A stretch of 64,000 bases of DNA. It comes from Planctomycetota bacterium. Its GTDB lineage: Bacteria > Planctomycetota > UBA1135 > GCA-002748355. Both the position numbers and the translations under genes were made by a program. Under the pieces are notes generated by a model. That model was not told the origin of the DNA. It worked only from the letters and a program-made list of their open reading frames with translations, and ran no database searches. Location of the stretch: positions 1-64,000 of the forward strand of contig JALUUL010000086.1 of assembly GCA_027021385.1 (NCBI GenBank). Reading direction: 5' to 3'. Positions 14,014 to 16,989 of this stretch are shown in pieces (the first letter of the stretch is position 1; the number at the start of each line of letters is the position of its first letter).

Positions 14014-15948
14014 ATGGGATTTCCCGCAAAGAATCGCCAGCCCGTCCTGCGTCCCTGGACGGTCAAGGACAGCGAGGAACTCTACCAGGTCAAGGCCTGG
14101 GGGAAGGGCTACTTCACCGTGAGCGAGGAGGGCACGGTCGAGGTCCTTTCCGGGATGCGGGGGAGGAGGGGGCTCGACATGGCGAAACTCGTCAACGAAC
14201 TCGTCGAGCGGGGGCTGAATCCTCCCCTTCTCCTCCGCTTCGGAGACATTCTCGAGGATCGGATCCGGAACCTGAACGAGGCCTTCCATCGGGCGATCGT
14301 CGAATATGGGTTCCGAGGAAGCTACCGGGGGGTGTTTCCCGTAAAGGTGAACCAGCAGCGGCAGGTCATCGAGGAACTCGTGAACTTCGGGCGCCCCTAC
14401 GGCCTGGGGCTCGAAGCCGGCAGCAAGCCGGAGCTCCTCGTCGCCCTCGCGATGCACGCGGACCCCGAATCCCTGATCATCTGCAACGGCTTCAAGGACC
14501 GGGAATACATCGAGATGGCAATGCTGGCCGCGAAGCTCGGAAAGCAGACCTTTCTCGTCATCGACCGGCTTGCCGAGGTCGATCTCTGCGTCGAGGCCGC
14601 GGGGAAGTTCGGGGTCAGGCCCTCGCTCGGGATCCGGGTCCGGCTCGTCAGCAAGGGTGCTGGGAAATGGACCGAGTCGAGCGGGGATCACTCCAAGTTC
14701 GGCCTCTCCTCCGAGGAGATCCTCGAGGTCGTCCGGATCCTGAAGGAGCACGACCTCTGCGATTGCCTGGAGATGCTCCATTTCCACATCGGCTCGCAGA
14801 TCACCGACATCCGCGCGGTCAAGGCGGCCTTGAGAGAGGCATCGAGGATCTACGTCGAACTCGTAGGTCTCGGGGCTCCGATGGGCTGGGTCGACGTGGG
14901 AGGGGGGCTCGGCGTCGACTACGACGGCTCGCGGACGAACTTCCCGTCCTCGATGAACTACACGCTGCAGGAGTACGCGAACGACGTCGTCGATTCGATC
15001 CGCGCGGCCTGCGACGAGGCCTCGGTCTCCCATCCCTACATCGTCAGCGAATCCGGAAGGGCGATGGTCGCGCACCATTCGGTGCTCGTCTTCGATGTCG
15101 TCGGAATCTCGGACGGGGGCGGAGGGCGGTCCCCTGAACCCGTCGTCGACGGGGATCCCGAGGTCGTCAGGGATCTGCACGAGGTGCTGCGGGGGTTGAG
15201 CACGAAGAACTACCTCGAGGGCTACCACGACGCCCTTCAGCTCCGCGAAGAGACGATGACCCGTTTCAATCTGGGGCTCCTCGACCTGAAAGCCCGGGCC
15301 CGGTGCGAAACCCTCTTCGCCTCGATCTGCCGCAAGGTCCTTAAGCTCGCGAGCGAGGAGGAGGAGCTTCCCGAGGAGCTGGAGCCCCTGGAGAGGTCCT
15401 TGTCCGAGATCTACTTCTGCAACTTCTCGGTCTTCCAGTCGATCCCGGACCATTGGGCCGTCAAGCAGCTCTTTCCCGTCATGCCGATCCAGGATCTCGA
15501 TCGCCGTCCGACGAGGAAGGCCGTCCTCGCCGATCTGACCTGTGACAGCGATGGAAAGATGGACCGCTTCATCGATCCGAGGGACGTCGCGCAGGTCGTC
15601 TCCCTCCATGATCCGGAACAGAGCGGAAAGCCCTATTACGTCGGGGTGTTCCTCGTCGGGGCCTACCAGGAGGTCCTCGGGGATCTGCACAACCTCTTCG
15701 GCGACACGAACGTCGTGCACGTCCGCATGGGGGAGGACGGAGAGCCGGATCTCTACAAGGTCGTCGAGGGGGACAGCGTCCGGGAGGTCCTGAGCTACGT
15801 CCAGTACGATCCCGAGGATCTCGTCGCAAGGGTCCGCAATGCGGCGGAGGGGGCGATCCGGGAAGGGAGGATCCGGCGCGTGGACGTTCAGGAACTCCTG
15901 CGCCGGTATAAGGGGACGCTCGAACGCCAGACCTATCTCGAGACCTGA
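14014..15948 (+). CDS. speA: Biosynthetic arginine decarboxylase SpeA
   Basis: 644 aa, the normal size for the fold III PLP enzyme that converts arginine to agmatine, the first step of one route to putrescine. Seen: the PLP lysine K111 in GVFPVKVNQQ, substrate/PLP segments GLEAGSKPEL and HFHIGSQI, the glycine loop DVGGGLGVDYDGS, and the C-terminal LADLTCDSDGKMDRF with the active-site cysteine supplied across the dimer. GAGAGG lies 7 nt before the ATG. A TAGAGT hexamer at 13972-13977 is a candidate -10. Agmatinase or agmatine deiminase is not in this window. Confidence 0.95.
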   Translation: MGFPAKNRQPVLRPWTVKDSEELYQVKAWGKGYFTVSEEGTVEVLSGMRGRRGLDMAKLVNELVERGLNPPLLLRFGDILEDRIRNLNEAFHRAIVEYGFRGSYRGVFPVKVNQQRQVIEELVNFGRPYGLGLEAGSKPELLVALAMHADPESLIICNGFKDREYIEMAMLAAKLGKQTFLVIDRLAEVDLCVEAAGKFGVRPSLGIRVRLVSKGAGKWTESSGDHSKFGLSSEEILEVVRILKEHDLCDCLEMLHFHIGSQITDIRAVKAALREASRIYVELVGLGAPMGWVDVGGGLGVDYDGSRTNFPSSMNYTLQEYANDVVDSIRAACDEASVSHPYIVSESGRAMVAHHSVLVFDVVGISDGGGGRSPEPVVDGDPEVVRDLHEVLRGLSTKNYLEGYHDALQLREETMTRFNLGLLDLKARARCETLFASICRKVLKLASEEEELPEELEPLERSLSEIYFCNFSVFQSIPDHWAVKQLFPVMPIQDLDRRPTRKAVLADLTCDSDGKMDRFIDPRDVAQVVSLHDPEQSGKPYYVGVFLVGAYQEVLGDLHNLFGDTNVVHVRMGEDGEPDLYKVVEGDSVREVLSYVQYDPEDLVARVRNAAEGAIREGRIRRVDVQELLRRYKGTLERQTYLET

Positions 15949-15975: not shown

Positions 15976-16479
15976 TCAGTCGAGGGGCGGGAGGTCTCCC
16001 AGCCCCTGCCCGTGCTCGGCGTCCACCTTGCGGCAGATCTCCAGGAGTTCGGAGATGTTCCGTTCTCCCGAGGGAGAGACGGAGGAGATGTGCCGGATGA
16101 CGCCGTCCTTGTCGATCACGACCGTGGCCCGGTCGGTGATCCCGTTGTCCGCCAGGTAGAGTCCGAAGGACTCCGCGACCGCTCCCTTGGGGTGGAAGTC
16201 GGCCAGCAGCGGGAAGTTGATGCCGCCCAGGCTCTCCGCCCAGGCCTTGTGGCAGAACTTGCTATCCACGGACACACCCAAGACCTGGGTGTGCGCCGAG
16301 CGGAACTCTCCGGAGAGCCGTTCCGTCTCGGGAACCTCCTTGCTTCAGGTCGGGGTGAAGTCGAGGGGATAGAAAAGCAGCATGAGATGACCTTTCCCGA
16401 GCCACTTCGACGAATCGATCGTGTGACCCAGGTGGTCTTCGAGCTTGAACGACGGGGCTTTTGCACCGACTTCGAGCAT
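15976..16479 (-). CDS. Selenocysteine-containing peroxiredoxin (in-frame TGA read as Sec45)
   Basis: 167 aa thiol (here selenol) peroxidase of the AhpC/TSA family, reducing peroxides with thioredoxin-type donors. AGGAGG sits just before the ATG at 16479. Residues 1-44 form the family N-terminus (VGAKAPSFKLEDHLGHTIDS, then LLFYPLDFTPT). Codon 45 is TGA at 16347-16345, exactly where peroxiredoxins have the peroxidatic Cys. With no frame change the gene continues SKEVPETERLSGEFR, VLGVSVDSKFCHKAW, FPLLADFHPKGAVAESFG and TVVIDKDGVIRH to a second TGA at 15978-15976. Everything except the catalytic codon is intact, so decay or sequencing error is unlikely. A stem-loop suited to be a SECIS follows. 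Other Cys residues (Cys76 and one near the C-terminus) could resolve. TGA is the ordinary stop of most genes here, so recoding must be site-specific. Confidence 0.87.
16296..16331 (-). promoter_or_regulatory. Putative bacterial SECIS element
   Basis: In the mRNA, 13 nt separate the recoded TGA from a 36-nt stem-loop: CCGAG pairs with CTCGG (5 bp), one A bulges, CGGAA pairs with TTCCG (5 bp), CGG bulges, and CTCT pairs with AGAG (4 bp) around a CCGG loop. All 14 pairs are Watson-Crick. The apical loop is 31 nt past the TGA, within the range known for bacterial SECIS elements that recruit SelB. The loop lacks the G often found among its first two bases, unless the inner helix refolds (CGG with CCG around CTCT). 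Confidence 0.6.
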
Positions 16480-16989
16480 CGTGCCTCCTGGTTGTTGGTC
16501 AGCGTTCTTGGCGGCTCCAAGAGCCGCCGGGAAGATCCTGGCTCGCCCCTGGGTCCGGGTCGGAAGACGCCGGCCCCGGGACCTCCTCCGAGAGAGCCGC
16601 CCGAGGACGGCCGGCCCCCCGCGGAACGAGCAAACGGCCAAGGGAATAGGACAGGATGTCGCGGGACCGAAGGGGAATCCCGGGAAAAAGCGAGGTCCAC
16701 AGACCCGTTCCCCGTGCCCCGCCGGGCGACATCCGTACAGGAAGTGATCCCGCCGAACAGGGGGAAAATGGGGGGGAGTGTCCGACGGGATCAGGGGATT
16801 CCTCGTCGGACGGAACCTCCGACCCGAGAGCCGGCCTTCCGCCCGAACGGGGGGAAGGCTAGCCCCTGAATCGTCGGTTGCAAGGGAATCTCCGGTTTTC
16901 GAAGGAGGGGTGGGCGGGGAAGGACTCCTCCCCGGCCGGAACGGGAGGGGATCTGGCCCGACCTTTGCGGGGGCCTTCCGCGGTCGTTG
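16480..16989. other. Long leader/intergenic region upstream of the peroxiredoxin gene
   Basis: 510 bases between tnaA and the peroxiredoxin gene, both on the minus strand. I find no credible gene and no tRNA-Sec. Two clear hairpins exist: GGCGGCTC/GAGCCGCC with a 3-nt loop at 16510-16528, ending 31 nt upstream of the peroxiredoxin ATG, and GTCCGACG/CGTCGGAC with a 16-nt loop at 16780-16811. Neither has a T-tract. The region probably holds the peroxiredoxin promoter and a structured 5' leader (inference). Confidence 0.5.

Follow-up and report, generated by a model that had tools for sequence, protein, structure and literature searches.

An AhpE-like peroxiredoxin gene of a planctomycete, almost certainly encoding a selenoprotein through an in-frame TGA at its catalytic codon

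Introduction

Peroxiredoxins act through a peroxidatic residue that reduces a hydroperoxide to water or an alcohol and is itself oxidised. The window analysed here, a 64,000-nucleotide stretch of a planctomycete draft genome, contains a peroxiredoxin gene in which the codon for this residue is TGA, and the question is whether that codon is read as selenocysteine (Sec) or marks an erroneous or broken sequence. A first-pass annotation, made from the sequence letters, had proposed Sec at the catalytic Cys position, a proposal that the Sec machinery of the genome and the TGA codons of the orthologues now support. Our comparative analysis indicates that the gene product is, with near certainty, a true selenium enzyme belonging to a type that is already known.

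Results

Reading frame of the peroxiredoxin gene

Read-through translation of the minus strand from position 16479 to 15979 gave one continuous product (MLEVGAKAPSF...FYPLDFTPT-U-SKEVPETE...LGDLPPLD-stop). The first-pass claim that a single frame encodes the whole peroxiredoxin except for a TGA at codon 45 was thus confirmed, and the strand, which had been left unstated, proved to be the minus strand. The translation of the forward strand at 15976-16479 is an unrelated sequence, and we rejected it as peroxiredoxin coding. The only internal TGA of the gene is codon 45, which lies within PLDFTPT-U-SKE; this corresponds to the active-site motif PxxxTxxC/U, with P38, T42 and U45 all present. The read-through protein matched Pfam AhpC-TSA (PF00578) over the full domain (E 2.2e-33, model positions 1-124).

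The other structural claims of the annotation held as well. The strong ribosome site was found before the ATG (Table 1). The segments on either side of the TGA, reported as intact and in the same frame, were about equally conserved (70% identity upstream and 62% downstream to the orthologue L021 from a same-family genome). The expectation that gene finders would split the gene was borne out by an ORF finder run without recoding, which returned two pieces at 16345-16641 and 15976-16281. We also considered the terminal TGA, codon 168, as a second Sec codon and rejected it: the orthologue L022 has TAA there, and the convergent neighbour gene ends at 15948, 27 nt past the peroxiredoxin stop.

Table 1. 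Positions of the peroxiredoxin gene and its associated features in the window
Feature	Position	Strand	Basis
Sec-peroxiredoxin CDS, 167 residues and TGA stop	15976..16479	-	Read-through translation; Pfam AhpC-TSA/Redoxin full-length; AlphaFold mean pLDDT 95.7
In-frame TGA, codon 45, peroxidatic position (PxxxTxxU), Sec by reading	16345..16347	-	TGA in 70/81, Cys in 11/81 at the codon
True stop, also TGA (TAA in the close orthologue L022)	15976..15978	-	Translation, orthologue comparison
Shine-Dalgarno GGAGG, 4 nt before ATG	16484..16488	-	Sequence
Cys76, candidate resolving Cys, helix alpha3, 31 residues past Sec45	16252..16254	-	Counts in Sec and Cys forms; helix 74-83 in model
Cys149, second candidate resolving Cys, C-terminal helix	16033..16035	-	Counts in Sec and Cys forms
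Conserved hairpin 3' of the TGA, candidate bacterial SECIS element	16296..16331	-	RNAalifold stem in five same-family genes; covariation; shuffles

Conservation of the TGA codon among relatives

We fetched 80 loci from genome contigs and, after removal of duplicates and inclusion of the window, obtained a working set of 81 sequences. The aligned codon 45 was TGA in 70 of the 81 and Cys in the other 11, which are more distant homologues. Within the family of the source organism, five of eight genomes, the window's included, hold the gene with one internal TGA, and in all five this TGA is codon 45. Aligning the orthologues at this position had been proposed as a check; TGA was found in all four same-family orthologues and in most of those from other phyla, and Cys was confined to the more distant homologues. 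The records of the TGA forms are labelled Planctomycetota, Myxococcota or Deltaproteobacteria, Acidobacteriota, SAR324, Krumholzibacteriota and others. Named species with a TGA orthologue include Enhygromyxa salina (L061) and Paraliomyxa miuraensis (L060). Taken with the even conservation of the two parts of the gene, the frequency of TGA at this codon is not a matter of chance.

In a maximum-likelihood tree, a branch supported at 100/99 separated 67 Sec sequences, including that of the window, from the 11 Cys sequences and three divergent Sec sequences. In a search of the class, every match of at least 42% identity has TGA, and no stop-free match exceeds 41% identity. A TGA-bearing relative was present in 36 of the 154 genomes of the class, and a search of plasmids returned only relatives below 60% identity. 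Downstream of the TGA, L021 and L022 differ at 4, 1 and 47 sites at codon positions 1, 2 and 3, respectively, and comparison of the sequences indicates that the parts on both sides of the TGA are under purifying selection of the same pattern.

Selenocysteine machinery of the source genome

The source assembly is a draft of 3.69 Mb in 86 contigs with a completeness of 93%. The annotation had named the lack of Sec machinery as the result that would count against it; a search for selA, selB, selD and tRNA-Sec found all four in this genome. SelA was detected at E 6e-119, SelB carries the winged-helix domain SelB-wing_3, and a tRNA-Sec with a UCA anticodon was detected at 78.1 bits (gathering score, 47). 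The selD gene (L018, G000:C58:49948-50868) adjoins selA and has its own in-frame TGA, in SCAGUAAK, so that SelD is itself a selenoprotein. TGA is the stop codon of 10 of the 12 window genes inspected and of the peroxiredoxin gene too, and is still a normal stop in this genome.

SelA is nearly universal in the class, being present in 139 of 154 genomes and in 52 of the 53 of good quality. With so high a background, the co-occurrence of SelA and the TGA-form peroxiredoxin (33 of 36 genomes) carries no information.

A second locus of the source genome (L119, G000:C79:114765-115124) encodes a TlpA/thioredoxin-like protein of the AhpC-TSA superfamily with an in-frame TGA in GDWUGPC (WUGPC; UxxC), and this protein is a further predicted selenoprotein.

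RNA signals beside the TGA

Of the 66 Sec genes with Ser as residue 46, directly after the TGA codon, 65 encode it by AGC or AGT, compared with a share of 40% elsewhere in the same genes, with related genes counted individually. The base 3' of the UGA thus appears to be under selection, pointing to a constraint at the RNA level.

RNAalifold predicted a 12-bp stem in the five same-family genes (nucleotides 17-52, with the T of the TGA as nucleotide 1). In these genes 86.7% of cells were paired, compared with 31.7-51.7% for slid versions. Compensatory, two-sided changes occurred in 4 of the 12 stem pairs, and no shuffle reached the pairing or covariation score. The stem was derived from the same five sequences used to score it, and all these figures lean in its favour. 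The folding energy of the window hairpin was about 2.2 standard deviations better than that of synonymous shuffles (z about -2.2; 42- and 60-nt stretches containing the whole stem). When folding was limited to 45 nt past the TGA, the window sequence showed no signal (z about +0.4), because the hairpin reaches further.

The published bSECIS model (PMC13188914) places the apical loop 16-37 nt after the UGA and asks for a G within its first two positions. The apical loop of the conserved stem lies about 30 nt after the UGA, within this range; its sequence is UCCG, and the hairpins of the window that fit the model are short 4-bp alternatives only. The conserved hairpin is a plausible bSECIS; since its apical loop starts without a G, it is only a candidate. 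Consensus-type hairpins of at least 4 bp were found in 86% of genes and 67% of synonymous shuffles, and we dropped this threshold as too permissive; hairpins of at least 7 bp separated the two (38% of genes versus 8% of shuffles).

Another 22 relatives, nearly all of them carrying the glutaredoxin-like fusion discussed below, have a different hairpin, typically CAGCGC-UGGAA-GCGCUG, which also shows compensatory changes. Its UGGA loop, 19-20 nt after the TGA, fits the published model (PMC13188914). RNAalifold over all 64 non-redundant Sec genes together found no common structure because the hairpin differs between subclades, and the analysis was therefore made by subclade. An Rfam search at the window hairpin returned no element.

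Predicted fold and candidate resolving cysteines

In the AlphaFold model (Table 1), residue 45 opens a helix. The active-site arginine, Arg117, was present in all 81 sequences, and the PxxxT motif and arginine (Thr42, Arg117) were invariant in the Sec forms. Two cysteines occurred in Sec forms only: Cys76 in 47 and Cys149 in 44 of the 70, with neither present in any of the 11 Cys forms. This co-occurrence suggests a selenenylsulfide intermediate.

Mycobacterium tuberculosis AhpE (Rv2238c, PDB 1xxu and others) was the best match to the window protein in sequence (E 4e-24) and, with the AlphaFold model, also in fold (TM 0.86-0.94; 1.4 A over 152 columns). AhpE has Cys at the site and is described as a 1-Cys enzyme, whereas the window protein has Sec45, Cys76 and Cys149, and AhpE lacks a Cys at the position that corresponds to Cys76. 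With Sec at the site and Cys76 and Cys149 as candidate resolving residues, the window protein departs from the 1-Cys type, which relies on one catalytic Cys and lacks a resolving one.

A C-terminal extension was found in 28 relatives, and the two examples characterised were glutaredoxin-like (PF00462 and GST_N). Fusions of such a domain (CGFS/CGxS) to a Sec peroxiredoxin were observed at L024, most of L040-L069, L092, L102 and others. The stop codon of the window gene falls in the linker region; the domain is absent, and a search of the genome for a stand-alone copy found none.

Discussion

Alternative explanations of the TGA codon

A sequencing or assembly error hiding TGC or TGT would make the gene an ordinary Cys peroxiredoxin. 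A single base change would suffice, and the assembly is a draft of many contigs; however, the same codon is TGA in the independent same-family assemblies G002, G003, G004 and G007 and in dozens of other genomes, and neither the AGC constraint next to the TGA nor a conserved hairpin is expected from an error. The interruption of the frame at residue 45 of 167 might mark a pseudogene created by a nonsense mutation, but the third-position excess of substitutions speaks for purifying selection on both halves, and in 70 genes the stop falls on the one catalytic codon. The TGA codons of the relatives, the tree, the identity split and the substitution pattern together exclude, for practical purposes, both the error and the pseudogene, to each of which we give a vanishingly small chance. 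Nor do we see any real prospect that TGA is a general sense codon, whether by reassignment or by Cys insertion, and is read without hairpin-directed Sec. Nothing but the in-frame TGA itself speaks for this, and against it stand the regular use of TGA as a stop in the window genes, its alignment with Cys in homologues and the presence of a canonical tRNA-Sec with SelA, SelB and SelD.

A different possibility concerns the efficiency of decoding. Sec insertion in bacteria competes with release factor 2, and the window hairpin departs from the consensus apical loop; the UGA might thus be read inefficiently or conditionally, yielding mostly a 44-residue fragment and making the gene a selenium-dependent switch. 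This fragment has no apparent function, however, and the full protein is strongly conserved, and we regard a switch as improbable.

Proposed function

We are highly confident in the remaining account, in which the gene encodes a stand-alone AhpE-like Sec-peroxiredoxin whose UGA is decoded by the Sec machinery and a hairpin and which reduces peroxides. Given the machinery and the conservation described above, SelA and SelD would make Sec-tRNA(Sec), which SelB would deliver to the UGA at codon 45 with the assistance of the hairpin just 3' of it, and translation would then end at the ordinary UGA of codon 168. Oriented by Pro38, Thr42 and Arg117, the Sec45 selenolate would reduce its substrate, H2O2 or an organic hydroperoxide, to water or alcohol and turn into a selenenic acid. 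This acid may be reduced by way of a selenenylsulfide formed with either Cys76 or Cys149 or, alternatively, directly by an external thiol or a thioredoxin-like protein.

Relation to known selenoproteins

TxxU peroxiredoxins are a long-known and common bacterial selenoprotein family, and the window gene is of this known kind; they are listed among the experimentally established selenoproteins (PMC13188914). PrxU of Eubacterium acidaminophilum (Sohling 2001, cited in PMC13188914) belongs to the same family and, in the account given there, has Sec at PxxxTxxU and a hairpin after the UGA. The window protein is shorter at the C terminus and scored 86.8 bits against the cut-off of 270 for NCBIfam PrxU (NF040737), which places the window gene in a different subfamily. 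The marine metagenome reports describe Prx selenoproteins of the same motif class (TxxU; 43 members in the Sargasso Sea, PMC1088965; 253 in GOS, PMC2398784) as being among the most abundant selenoproteins. Sec machinery and selenoproteins are also described for Planctomycetota, in the Porphyra-associated strains P1 and P2 (PMC4807772), and the main text of that study names no peroxiredoxin.

Less familiar is a cross-phylum, Sec-dominated AhpE-like branch in which many members have a fused glutaredoxin-like domain. Hybrid Prx-Grx enzymes are known from Haemophilus and others; the 28 relatives with a C-terminal glutaredoxin-like extension resemble them but have Sec in the Prx part, and the window gene has no such domain. 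The GOS paper reports Prx fused to a PP2C phosphatase, and the passages covered contain no Prx-Grx fusion (PMC2398784); we found no description of a Sec Prx-Grx fusion in the literature searched, which is partial in coverage and weak as evidence. A broader and distinctly tentative reading, on which we place somewhat less than even weight, is that the branch forms a cross-phylum Sec-dominated AhpE-like clade where a partner cysteine at a novel position (Cys76 or Cys149) resolves Sec45, relatives carry a fused glutaredoxin-like reductase, and the family of the window gene uses a bSECIS without the apical-loop G.

The locus is a clear selenoprotein gene that standard gene calling splits in two, and the presence of TGA-bearing relatives in 36 of the 154 class genomes makes it likely that such misannotation is systematic among uncultured Planctomycetota and in several further phyla. 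With 70 TGA forms and only 11 distant Cys homologues, the set examined lends itself to asking why Sec is retained, by what route it is reduced once it has reacted and how far SECIS hairpins can vary. Other same-family genomes contain AhpC-like and PrxQ-like paralogues with TGA at the peroxidatic codon (L029, L030 and L032-L036), pointing to a large predicted selenoproteome.
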